From positions 1 to 5,346 of the forward strand of contig JAIDTS010000142.1 in the NCBI GenBank assembly GCA_029060585.1: DNA of 5,346 bases, written 5' to 3'. Positions 1,926-4,271 of the stretch are shown piece by piece. The first letter of the stretch is position 1, and every line of letters begins with the position of its first letter. The stretch comes from Muribaculaceae bacterium. GTDB lineage: Bacteria > Bacteroidota > Bacteroidia > Bacteroidales > Muribaculaceae. The notes under the pieces are model-generated. The model was not told the DNA's origin and made no database searches. It saw only the letters and a program-made list of their open reading frames with translations. A program made the translations under genes and the position numbers.

Positions 1926-2582
1926 CTATCTTTGAGTGAAAGTCACATCGTCTACGACAAGTGTTTGTTTACCGATGGTATAGAAACCAATGCCAGTGAA
2001 GTCAAGTGGCATATAGCGAACTTTAAGAATCTCCATGTCATTGACGAAGAATTGAAGCACTCCATTGTCACTGATTAGTTTCCAGACCTGATCCTGCTTG
2101 CCCTTTTCTGCCTTTCCCCATTTGATGTCTTGTGTGATGCTTCCCACGCAGCGATTGTCAACAAAACGAAGGAAGGTTACAGCTTCTTTATTGAACACGA
2201 AGGCATAGTAGTTACCGAAATCGCGATAGTTGAAGATCATGCCGGCTTGACGTTCAAGATCAAGATTATCCATTTTTACGTTGGCGATAATCTCGAAAGG
2301 CTTTTTCACATCGAGAGGAGCGTAACAGTGTGTTTCAAACGCAGTATTCTCGCTTCCCTTCGCAAAGCCATTTAGGTTTGCGGCGAGACGACTGAACTTA
2401 GAATCACCTTTCGATTTAATGGTCATTACACCTTTGTCGATGATAGCTGTGCCAGAGTTACTTTCCCCGGCACTCTCGGTCCATCCGAGTGAATTTGCGT
2501 CGAATGATTCGACAAAACTTTGTGCATTAGCAGCCAATCCAAGGGCTCCTATTACGCACAATGAAAGAAATGTTCTTTTCAT
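1926..2582 (-). CDS. Exported protein with jelly-roll (concanavalin A-like/LamG-like) fold
   Basis: The 218-residue product begins with a clear Sec signal peptide: KR, a hydrophobic stretch to residue 18, then ANA before Q21, a standard signal peptidase I site. The mature part reads as one beta-sandwich domain: SFVESFDANSLGWTES at the start, then alternating strands such as FEIIANVKMDNL, AGMIFNYRDFGNYYAFVF and VLQFFVNDMEILKV, ending in LVVDDVTFTQR. This strand order and the FDANSLGW-type opening are typical of concanavalin A-like lectin/glucanase or DUF1080-like domains, which bind or cut glycans. No catalytic residues can be assigned, so a binding role is as likely. It is the last gene of the three-gene minus-strand operon, 20 nt after the PEGA-like protein, and ends before the shared terminator. 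The start ATG is supported by the signal peptide beginning right at it. It is probably periplasmic or surface-located. Confidence 0.7.
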   Translation of the reverse strand: MKRTFLSLCVIGALGLAANAQSFVESFDANSLGWTESAGESNSGTAIIDKGVMTIKSKGDSKFSRLAANLNGFAKGSENTAFETHCYAPLDVKKPFEIIANVKMDNLDLERQAGMIFNYRDFGNYYAFVFNKEAVTFLRFVDNRCVGSITQDIKWGKAEKGKQDQVWKLISDNGVLQFFVNDMEILKVRYMPLDFTGIGFYTIGKQTLVVDDVTFTQR

Positions 2583-2602: not shown

Positions 2603-3310
2603 TTAAATGCTACTTGCTTTTCCGATTCTGGTTTGTAGTTCCTCTACCATGGGTTCCAGTTCTTTAGGTAGACGATCAACCTCATCAAATTCACCATGTC
2701 TGGCCTGCATCGCTCCTGCAACTTCCGATGATATCTTAATTTGGAAGGCTACCCGCTCAGGGGTAGTGACGTCACGGACCGTAACGCGATTACGGAGTTG
2801 CTTTTCAGACATATTGAAGGATTTATATTTCCATGGAGTTTGAAGATACCCACCATGGAAATCGGTAGTCTCTATCTCAGGAAAATAATTCAGAAGTATT
2901 TGGTGTAGAAGTTTCCATGCAGCTTCGCTATTCACATTCCCGTCACTATCTTTAGAATAATACTTAGGATCCAAAGTAATAGTCATATACTTATTTACAA
3001 GGCCAGAAGCTGCCGATCCACGATAGAATCCATCTTGCATCAGGTTGAATGAAAGAGAATTTCGTTCATCTCCACCATAGAATTTAGAGTTAGCGGTGGT
3101 GTACTCGTCACATTCCACTCTGATGATAGCTACTTGATTCTTTTTCGGTGGACGCGAGAATTCTCCGTATCCATAGCCAATAAGGTTATTATCAACATAA
3201 ATAGCTGCTTCTTTGGGTTGAACAGTGATTTTGATTACTTTGGCCTTCTTTTCTGCAGATGCTGAGATACCACAGATTAAAGCCATCAATAAAAAAAGAT
3301 ATTTCTTCAT
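2603..3310 (-). CDS. Exported PEGA-like protein of unknown function
   Basis: This 235-residue protein has a Sec signal peptide at residues 1-19 (KK, then YLFLLMALICGIS, cleavage after ASA). Residues about 24-60 (VIKITVQPKEAAIYVDNNLI, then GYGYGEF) look like a PEGA domain: a strand, a P-x-x-A-x-I-Y-V-D core and a turn. The rest has no family I recognise. It includes a strand MTITLDPKYY, a helix around EAAWKLLHQILLNYFPEIE, and a charged helical C-terminus. PEGA domains are small extracytoplasmic beta folds often tied to envelope proteins; their ligands are mostly unknown. It is the middle gene of the operon, 9 nt after the small lipoprotein, which also has a PEGA-like core, and 20 nt before the jelly-roll protein. 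The two PEGA-like proteins side by side suggest duplication or partners in one envelope structure, which is inference. Confidence 0.68.
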   Translation of the reverse strand: MKKYLFLLMALICGISASAEKKAKVIKITVQPKEAAIYVDNNLIGYGYGEFSRPPKKNQVAIIRVECDEYTTANSKFYGGDERNSLSFNLMQDGFYRGSAASGLVNKYMTITLDPKYYSKDSDGNVNSEAAWKLLHQILLNYFPEIETTDFHGGYLQTPWKYKSFNMSEKQLRNRVTVRDVTTPERVAFQIKISSEVAGAMQARHGEFDEVDRLPKELEPMVEELQTRIGKASSI

Positions 3311-3319
3311 GATGGTATA

Positions 3320-3661
3320 TTAATATGGTTTATTTGAATATTTGTAATTTTTGGGGATTTGAAGTTCTATGAGGTTCCCCTTTCTGGACCTTACGTTAAT
3401 TCTACGTTGATAAACCTCAATGCCATTTTCTCTGCATGAGACCTCTATATATTCTCGTCCTTTTGGCACGGTATAGTAAACGAGATCTCTCCCAAGATAC
3501 TCATCATCCACATAAATCTCAACCTGTCGTTCTTGGCATGTGAGCACTATAGTTTTAACAGAAGAACAAGACACGGTAGCTATTGAACATGAGATATATA
3601 CAGAACATGCTCCTAAAAGAATTAAAAGTTGTCGAAACGATTTAAAGTGGAAATACTTCAC
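3320..3661 (-). CDS. Small probable lipoprotein with PEGA-like domain
   Basis: The 113-residue product starts with a basic segment (MKYFHFKSFRQ), then a hydrophobic stretch with three cysteines at 19, 25 and 32. LGAC at 16-19 is the best lipobox, while C25 or C32 would give a longer signal, so lipidation is likely but the exact cysteine is not fixed. The mature domain (residues about 36-105) has QVEIYVDDEYLGRD, then YYTVPKGREYIEVSC, the PEGA pattern of strand, V-D-x-x-x-x-G and P-x-G. The start is GTG. An in-frame TGA lies one codon earlier (3665-3667), so translation cannot begin further up in this frame. An ATG one base out of frame lies 4 nt before (see findings). No -7 box is visible in the 48 nt between it and the upstream RNA terminator, so transcription may depend on read-through or on a promoter I cannot see. 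It is the first gene of the three-gene operon. Confidence 0.65.
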   Translation of the reverse strand: MKYFHFKSFRQLLILLGACSVYISCSIATVSCSSVKTIVLTCQERQVEIYVDDEYLGRDLVYYTVPKGREYIEVSCRENGIEVYQRRINVRSRKGNLIELQIPKNYKYSNKPY

Positions 3662-3708
3662 TTTTCATATTTGTTTTGCCACCGCTTCTCCTTAATGGCT
3701 GTAAAAAC

Positions 3709-3805
3709 AAAAAAGCGTGAGAGCCATACTGTTGCTCGTTCCGCTTGTAGAGGCCTTCGCATTGCCCATCGTAGTAGAACGAGCAAACTTGCAGAAGCCT
3801 CACGC
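3709..3805 (-). terminator. Terminator hairpin with U tract ending the candidate RNA
   Basis: On the minus strand GCGTGAG pairs with CTCACGC (3799-3805 with 3715-3721) and an inner stem pairs 3777-3788 with 3731-3741 (GTTTGCTCGTTC type against GAACGAGCAAC, one bulge). The minus-strand RNA then continues into six U, one G and five U (3714 down to 3703). A long stem followed directly by a U run is the form of an intrinsic terminator. The 35-nt loop is unusually large, so the hairpin is probably also part of the RNA fold. It ends 48 nt before the GTG of the lipoprotein gene on the same strand. Confidence 0.65.
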
Positions 3806-4024
3806 GGAATATGTGTACGTAATGCGTCAATAGCACTCGCTCACGCGCTTACTAATAACGGAATATACACATCCACAAGGCATCTACTGTTTGCTTCATT
3901 CTTGACTACGATTGAAAGTTGCGAAGTTTCTACAAGCCAAGAAAGAGCGTCGAGTAAACGCTTTCCAATATGTCTGCAGCCCCGCCCGCATTGCCCTTGA
4001 CCGGGCTTCCGCTTTGCGGTCTGC
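3709..4024 (-). ncRNA. Candidate structured non-coding RNA, about 315 nt, family unknown
   Basis: The stretch holds no convincing protein gene but is packed with inverted repeats. Reading the minus strand from the promoter: CCGC-3 nt-GCGG (4009-4019), GCCCG with CGGGC (3984-4006), GAAAGCG with a bulged partner (3941-3965), a 7-bp stem 3811-3817/3866-3872 enclosing a second stem 3819-3826/3846-3852, and a long 3' hairpin 3715-3805. A 9-bp perfect match links 3929-3937 with 3743-3751, which lies in the loop of the 3' hairpin, so a pseudoknot is possible. CGCATTGCCC also occurs twice (3758-3767 and 3987-3996). Strand is decided by the -7 box at 4030-4037 and by the U tract after the last hairpin. 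The ends are estimates. I checked by eye for RNase P RNA (no GAGGAAAGTCC block), tmRNA (no tag reading frame) and SRP RNA (no GGAAGGA-type tetraloop domain) and found none; 6S RNA is not excluded. I have an unverified impression that short spurious translations of such a region recur in Bacteroidales genomes. Confidence 0.55.
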
Positions 4025-4029
4025 AATCG

Positions 4030-4061
4030 CAAAATTAATAATAGTTTTTGAATCTGACAAC
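4030..4061 (-). promoter_or_regulatory. Bacteroidetes-type promoter for the candidate RNA
   Basis: On the minus strand TAATTTTG (4037 to 4030) matches the Bacteroidetes -7 consensus TAnnTTTG in full. A GTTG (4061 to 4058), three of four bases of the TTTG -33 element, lies exactly 20 nt upstream, the usual spacing. Transcription would start about 5 to 8 nt below 4030, shortly before the first hairpin of the RNA. Confidence 0.6.
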
Positions 4062-4113: not shown

Positions 4114-4121
4114 TAAATTTG
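4114..4121 (+). promoter_or_regulatory. -7 box TAAATTTG, divergent from the RNA promoter
   Basis: TAAATTTG matches TAnnTTTG in full, on the plus strand, but no TTTG is present 19 to 21 nt upstream, so the -33 half is weak or missing. A start near 4126-4129 would fall on or just after the ATG of the rhuM remnant (4125) and would give the pseudouridine synthase gene a leader of about 140 nt. It was probably the promoter of the lost rhuM copy and may now serve the downstream gene. Confidence 0.45.
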
Positions 4122-4124
4122 CAT

Positions 4125-4271
4125 ATGGAAAAGAATGAAACCAACAAGATATTCATATATCAGGAAGAGGATGAGCTCATTAAAGTTTTTTCTGCGAACT
4201 TTCCATGTCTCCCTCTATCGGTCCGCGAGCGCAGCATGAGATCATTACAATATAAAATGCATCAACAATGA
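4125..4271 (+). pseudogene. Broken 5' end of a second RhuM-family gene
   Basis: The frame gives 48 codons beginning MEKNETNKIFIYQEEDE. The first part is plainly related to the intact RhuM start: ETNKIFIYQEED against ETNEIIIYQGED, 9 of 12 residues. In DNA, 4137-4173 matches 349-385 at 33 of 37 bases. After the shared GAGGATG the similarity stops at once, and the remaining codons up to TGA 4269-4271 resemble nothing in RhuM; the helix-turn-helix and all later motifs are missing. The sharp break points to a deletion that joined the gene start to unrelated sequence, rather than slow decay. The differences from the intact copy (including an extra 6 nt after the ATG) show it came from a diverged relative, not from a recent duplicate. 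Its TGA overlaps the ATG of the next gene in ATGA (4268-4271). It might still be translated as a short leader peptide, but there is no direct sign of that. Confidence 0.7.

Follow-up and report, generated by a model that had tools for sequence, protein, structure and literature searches.

A structured RNA of about 330 nucleotides ahead of diverse genes in Bacteroidales: a candidate leader switch

The RNA locus

The window, by which we mean the whole stretch of 5,346 nucleotides analysed here, carries on its minus strand a structured RNA of about 330 nt, running from approximately position 4030 to 3703, and three genes downstream of it on the same strand. The features and, for those of the RNA itself, the evidence from which they were delineated are as follows:

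4030..4060, minus: promoter, with TTG at 4060-4058, a 20-nt spacer and the TAnnTTTG box TAATTTTG at 4037-4030
3982..4023, minus: 5' module, a hairpin near the transcript start whose size varies among copies (alignments and copy listings)
3946..3962, minus: P1 hairpin, AGCGU-UUACUCG-ACGCU (read from alignments)
3899..3943, minus: HP2, comprising strands a (3943-3936), b (3936-3930), the c hairpin (3930-3914), d (3913-3906) and e (3906-3899) (cis/trans pairing test and pair counts)
3879..3895, minus: strand A, the predicted antiterminator 5' strand, which pairs with B (cis/trans test; rod helices 4 and 5 of alignment A6)
3807..3878, minus: apical region of the rod, its outer part paired and its tip variable (alignment A6 and fold)
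3777..3806, minus: strand B, partner of A in the rod or of C in the terminator (pairing tests and covariation)
3744..3774, minus: strands d' (3774-3768), c' (GGGCAAUGCGAAGG, 3767-3754) and b' (3750-3744) (cis/trans pairing test)
3715..3742, minus: strand C, the predicted terminator 3' arm, whose GGCUCUC part also matches the D loop (B:C covariation and C:D test)
3703..3714, minus: U-run UUUUUUGUUUUU of the intrinsic-terminator-like end (sequence)
3678..3700, minus: D hairpin, a small stem with a purine-rich loop, AAGGAGAAGC (3693-3684), complementary to C (fold)
3320..3661, minus: first downstream gene, 113 aa, with a GTG start and an N-terminus that is signal-like by eye
2603..3310, minus: second downstream gene, 235 aa, its N-terminus likewise signal-like by eye
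1926..2582, minus: third downstream gene, 218 aa

Within HP2, strand a pairs with e, while b, c and d pair with b', c' and d' in the rod. The minus strand of this region folds at -141.9 kcal/mol (z -8.4), with 0 of 100 shuffles being equally stable, and the fold of the plus strand is less remarkable (z -4.6). An earlier note on this DNA had proposed a promoter and a terminator for a stand-alone RNA, and both elements were found where it had placed them. A -33-like TTG lies 20 nt 5' of TAATTTTG, and of 140 copies of the RNA, 114 have a TAnnTTTG box within the 160 nt 5' of the core, as against 219 of 2800 shuffles (7.8%) and 5 of 135 segments taken about 370 nt further 5'. At the other end, a GCGUGAG/CUCACGC stem is followed by UUUUUUGUUUUU at 3714-3703 on the minus strand. 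In one listing of 28 copies, 26 have a U-rich tract after the stem and the other two run into an inserted element; in a second listing, all 28 have the tract. The conserved unit extends beyond 3703 to a second hairpin at 3700-3678, the D hairpin, which stands directly ahead of the start of the next gene and whose match with C is interrupted in the window copy. We also noted that, between 3703 and 3660, the U-rich tract of the window can pair with AAAACAAA just ahead of the start codon, thereby lengthening the D hairpin.

The region showed no sign of encoding a protein, in agreement with the earlier note. Across the 86 copies compared, substitutions are only mildly uneven over the three frame positions (1585/1918/1941), and 870 of 1062 indels have lengths not divisible by three, frame statistics that are those of non-coding sequence. 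A Pfam scan of the five short frames in the RNA region returned no match, and a short protein on either strand was rejected on the strength of the frame-breaking indels and this result. The covarying helices of the terminator contain 105 G-U cells as against a single A-C cell; because G-U cells so far outnumber A-C cells, it is the minus-strand RNA that is the constrained molecule. This strand bias, along with the weaker fold of the plus strand, led us to reject a DNA palindrome without RNA function. The strand preference also speaks against a MITE, for which a palindrome without such preference, together with target duplications, would be expected. Taken together, the fold z-score, promoter, terminator-like end and covariation (see below) confirm a real structured RNA on the minus strand.

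This RNA does not belong to any family against which it was compared. A search of the window with Rfam 15 gave four matches up to an E-value of 10; these all fell short of the threshold and lay outside the RNA. In seven further loci with copies only two tRNAs located elsewhere passed the threshold; a tRNA/tmRNA search of the window found none. Rfam 15 covers RNase P, tmRNA and SRP RNA, so that the absence of their hallmarks reported in the earlier note holds, and known Rfam RNAs, tRNA and tmRNA were rejected as identities. No description of the family was found in the openly accessible journal articles covered, including portions of PMC11697453, PMC2864571, PMC7366714 and PMC8040213.

Two alternative folds and their comparative support

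The earlier note had counted at least five stems. The stems are there, but they are not separate: they make up one rod of about 250 nt and an alternative terminator fold that shares strands with the rod. To compare the two we used A6, an unfitted MAFFT alignment of 30 of 31 listed copies (L084 was left out). On A6 the rod (b:b', c:c', d:d' and A:B) has 34 pairs, with 97.5% of cells paired and changes on both sides in 20 of the 34. Its double-changed cells number 200, where shuffles gave 59.4 on average and slid controls 15-24, and its covariation score of 0.538 falls to 0.098 or less when slid. The alternative fold (a:e and B:C) is 97.9% paired on the same alignment, with only 3 of 25 pairs doubly changed; in a:e and in the outer B:C helix, all changes are one-sided. 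For the B:C helices, an unfitted alignment of 26 copies gave 97.8% of cells paired and 5 of 18 pairs doubly changed (slid, 33-54% paired), and 79 copies aligned to the model gave 99.0% and 14 of 18 (slid, 37-51%), the latter alignment being fitted to the model and hence leaning towards the terminator structure. Within strand B, column 213 covaries both with A (column 74) and with C (column 262), while column 212 covaries with A and more weakly, mostly through one-sided changes, with C. Such sharing of columns 212 and 213 of B by A and C is the pattern that a switch requires.

An alignment-free view was obtained from a cis/trans test, in which pairing within copies was set against pairing between copies over 5000 permutations, using 55 copies dereplicated from 74 of the 75 with at least 200 nt upstream. 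The strand pairs a:e, b:b', c:c', d:d', A:B and both parts of B:C pair better within copies, with 0 of 5000 permutations matching each of them. The signals included those of b:b' (z -25.8), d:d' (z -24.3), c:c' (z -11.0) and A:B (z -10.3; cis -18.4 vs trans -15.5 kcal/mol); the permutation statistics ignore the relatedness of the copies. Seven of eight controls were null, the eighth, e:b', giving a weak signal (z -2.6). RNAalifold, applied to 28 copies aligned by MAFFT, retrieved the rod only in part. These comparisons, all at the level of sequence, support two mutually exclusive predicted folds, the rod and the terminator, both of them conserved, with the covariation of the terminator being the weaker. 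The covariation check suggested in the earlier note thus came out in favour of the structure, with double changes in aligned homologues backing the rod more than the terminator. A kissing complex of two closed hairpins, joining b, c and d with b', c' and d', was set aside as topologically hard, and the folds were treated as alternatives. Folding energy favours the rod in 54 of the 55 copies, by a mean of 12.3 kcal/mol; termination would therefore have to be kinetic.

Relatives and downstream genes

We gathered 52 loci from MAG contigs through a neighbouring pseudouridine-synthase-like gene, of which 17 are labelled Muribaculaceae and the rest Porphyromonadaceae, Bacteroides sp., Bacteroidales, Barnesiella or simply bacterium. 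A DNA search found matches to the RNA in all 14 of the genomes examined among these, dispersed and numbering 4 to 12 in each, some of them partial. Two covariance models, R1 for the terminator domain and the wider R2 built from 79 sequences, were used for broader searches. Matches were detected in 58 of 61 genomes in the genus of G001 (the genome of locus L052; up to 16 copies), 136 of 149 in its family, which contains the closest relatives (1-16 copies per positive genome), 17 of 18 in the family of G120 (1-19 copies) and 26 of 78 in that of G170; these three are presumably different families of the order. Wider samples gave 35 of 295 genomes order-wide and 8 of 395 class-wide. Since strict filters were used everywhere other than in the family of G120, these counts are lower bounds, and negatives in the searches over 40 genomes are weak because of these filters and the 10-67 candidates scored in each. 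The RNA was also found in one unannotated record of a phage collection, while a search of a plasmid collection gave no match. At one locus (L191:1415-1500 and 1813-1896) two matches to the RNA model share one direction and are separated by about 400 nt, in a manner resembling tandem leaders; the second of them is weak (33 bits).

The copies show a consistent relationship to the gene that follows. Among 139 copies with at least 300 nt downstream, which were not dereplicated by similarity, an ATG frame of at least 50 aa starts 15-110 nt past the terminator in 113, with 92 of these frames starting at 40-79 nt. The corresponding figures are 1197 of 4200 random positions (28.5%) and 35 of 132 divergent upstream sites. 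The remaining 26 of 139 lie outside this strict range, including the window copy with its GTG start; for 5 of the 26, even when every usual start codon is allowed, no 50-aa frame begins in the following 260 nt. Furthermore, strand C and the D loop are matched locus by locus, as in GAAUCCC/GGGAUUC (L001), GAAUUCC/GGAAUUC (L125) and CAGUUC/GAACUG (L190). For this C:D test 139 of 143 copies were used, again not dereplicated by similarity, after dropping three without a recognised U-run pattern and one with too little downstream sequence. The pairing energy was -9.37 kcal/mol in cis, -6.99 in trans and -5.56 when shuffled (z -13.7), with at least 6 bp formed in 117 of 139 copies; a cruder cis/trans test on 55 copies gave z -3.7. 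The position of the gene and the locus-specific C:D match therefore indicate a cis-acting leader. The stand-alone status envisaged earlier is not supported and probably does not apply: most copies lie at a regular spacing ahead of a gene in the same orientation, and the terminator 3' arm is complementary, in a locus-specific manner, to the loop immediately 5' of that gene's start codon.

The association extends to whole operons. At an unrelated locus (L136), an RNA copy is likewise followed by the same three-gene order as in the window, and in 17 of the 30 homologues of the second gene that were fetched, from 36 matches, the RNA is upstream and co-oriented. Close homologues, those sharing 74% identity or more, account for 11 of these (out of 14), and the more divergent ones for 6 (out of 16); of the three exceptions in the former group, one is at a contig edge, one has a weak match only and one has none. 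The link between the RNA and this operon thus persists in different genomes and at different loci.

In their predicted functions the downstream genes are diverse. A Pfam scan covered 58 of 68 downstream proteins; the other ten were passed over because they nearly duplicated another protein or, in the case of L058, because the reading frame was doubtful. Of the 40 families matched, 25 were listed; these include BspA-type leucine-rich repeats in 9 of the 58 proteins, BACON in 2 and a secretion-system C-terminal tail in 2, with single matches to an outer-membrane barrel, PEGA, LytTR, PAPS reductase and an SNF2-related domain. By a rough heuristic, signal-like N-termini occur in 51 of 110 downstream frames as against 66 of 241 control frames. 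Two copies in one 6.5-Mb genome precede ECF sigma factors, and on a contig from a viral collection the RNA lies ahead of the BREX-type genes BrxP and BrxC. BrxP-like PAPS-reductase genes were seen after the RNA at L212, by domain scan, and at L217 and L001, judged from their like N-terminal sequences. At L211 (648-5358) an RNA copy is followed by an EF-Tu-like GTPase, an unassigned 334-aa protein and a 648-aa protein; the last, without a Pfam match, reads like a relative of Hsp70, and the operon, an unfamiliar one, is perhaps defence-related. A purely anti-phage role was rejected, as each of the 25 listed of 38 defence models matched only 1 of the 58 proteins; BREX (BrxP, BrxC) and helicase matches are nonetheless present downstream. 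Such a mixture of surface or secreted proteins, ECF sigma factors and BREX-type defence genes suggests no ligand.

A candidate cis-acting switch and competing explanations

In transcription attenuators and transcriptional riboswitches, the 5' leader can form either an antiterminator or an intrinsic terminator, each excluding the other. The RNA described here resembles them in several respects: B is shared between the rod, with A, and the terminator, with C; the RNA lies between a promoter and a same-strand coding sequence (the box in 114 of 140 copies, the frame in 113 of 139); a predicted intrinsic terminator, recognised as a covarying GC stem and U-run, precedes the gene; and the conserved candidate antiterminator would exclude that terminator, whose covariation on A6 is the weaker. 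It differs from them in its size of about 330 nt, in having one fold ahead of functionally mixed genes and many copies per genome, in the locus-matched hairpin D after the terminator, and in lacking an Rfam match. We consider it probable that the RNA is a portable, cis-acting leader switch, that is, a transcription attenuator, perhaps with a translational step. Transcription would begin at the conserved promoter. If B pairs with C during synthesis, an intrinsic terminator would form, with HP2 (a:e) folded upstream, and a transcript of about 330 nt would be released. If instead B pairs with A, and b, c and d with b', c' and d', the long rod would remove the terminator and allow read-through into the gene. 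In the read-through transcript the freed C may pair with the D loop just 5' of the start codon, providing a possible second, translational step. D cannot join the decision on termination because it is transcribed after the U-run, and the part given to it in the read-through transcript is a guess.

Comparison of the copies shows the rod, the B:C helices and, more weakly, a:e, as well as the promoter box, the locus-by-locus pairing of C with D and the placement ahead of a gene; from these we infer that the U-run acts as a terminator, that the RNA switches between the two folds, which of them is the on state and that D has a role. Counting against a leader switch are the downstream genes without a single common function, which is unusual for a metabolite switch, a terminator-state covariation far below that of the rod on A6, the greater stability of the rod in 54 of 55 copies, the 26 of 139 copies that miss the ATG range and, in the window copy, the GTG start and the interrupted C:D match.

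A competing explanation is a multicopy trans-acting sRNA, an independently terminated molecule of about 330 nt that would refold to the rod and target other RNAs or proteins, its neighbours being incidental. Such an RNA would have its own promoter and terminator-like end, and its lower-energy and better-covarying state would be the rod, as is the case here. Stable long rods with internal loops are also seen in 6S RNA, which the present RNA resembles in this respect; to our knowledge 6S RNA is not a multicopy leader with a switching terminator, and the RNA studied here has no Rfam match. Multicopy sRNA families are known in the group: the portions of PMC11697453 consulted describe the FopS/GibS sRNAs of Bacteroides as a multicopy family with a canonical promoter and an intrinsic terminator, FopS being about 65-70 nt with a single-stranded 5' seed and one terminator hairpin. 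As far as that account goes, the likeness lies in a multicopy non-coding family of the same order with a promoter and terminator, and the difference in the length of about 330 nt, the folding from near the 5' end and the tie to the next gene. For a trans-acting molecule neither the short distance and shared orientation to a gene in 113 of 139 copies nor the locus-specific C:D complementarity is expected, and we regard this explanation as rather unlikely. Bacteroidales-1 and other Bacteroidetes motifs were reported from comparative genomics by Weinberg 2010 (PMC2864571, in the parts covered); they come from the same bacterial group, and those with Rfam models, when searched against the window and the seven further loci, did not match the RNA.

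The earlier note had also raised membership in a mobile element. The RNA is indeed multicopy, modular and present in viral contigs, which keeps such an origin a live rival without establishing it. Here the promoter, RNA and D hairpin would be a portable genetic module shuffled by recombination or transposition, primarily a mobile element that brings a promoter to accessory genes. In line with this, positive genomes carry 1-16 copies in one family and 1-19 in another, and R2 matches 5 of the 12 viral contigs holding one core motif. On one contig near-identical copies stand ahead of different genes (L133, 95% over 531 nt, and L134). The window and L052 have the RNA in common at the same locus, with their homology ending at 3704, within the U-run, and different genes beyond; moreover, in orthologous operons the RNAs fall into different c types, and their D hairpins likewise differ in type. 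It follows from the last two observations that RNA and gene recombine as modules. Homologous recombination between copies would suffice for this exchange, however; no transposase family is among the 25 of 40 listed Pfam families of the 58 downstream proteins, and the pronounced covariation and G-U bias of the RNA require it to be under selection. We therefore deem a primarily mobile element unlikely. A ribozyme or processed RNA, self-cleaving or cut, with the C:D pairing marking a site of mRNA processing, would fit the size and complexity of the RNA and the way in which C:D pairing spans the U-run, but is very improbable, as no Rfam family matches, catalytic ones included, and there is no positive evidence for it.

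Returning to the leader switch, its breadth admits a more tentative reading, namely that the RNA could represent a new class of large RNA switch and a common control module in gut Bacteroidales, in which a fold of about 330 nt before surface, ECF sigma and phage-defence genes senses one general signal, couples termination to start-codon pairing and sets an accessory regulon of up to 16-19 units per genome. If this is true, most sampled members of an abundant gut family would control part of their surface, sigma-factor and defence genes via one RNA module that is absent from Rfam 15, and a leader common to genes of mixed function would identify a regulon invisible to gene annotation. The fold predicts exact, compensatable mutations; switching is therefore directly testable in cultured strains.

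Two further observations concern rearrangement around the RNA. In one genome, G006, the same sequence follows two RNA copies on different contigs (L058, and about 100 nt of it at L074), having broken in at the terminator; at L058 (400-1458) the inserted sequence encodes an IS110-family transposase on the opposite strand. The repetition of the insertion at one place suggests an IS110 element that targets the terminator of the RNA. In the window, a short frame at 4119-4271, 5' of the pseudouridine-synthase-like gene, resembles the start of a full RhuM-family gene at 343-1347, and as RhuM fragments have recombined here in related loci, the place looks like a hotspot of rearrangement.
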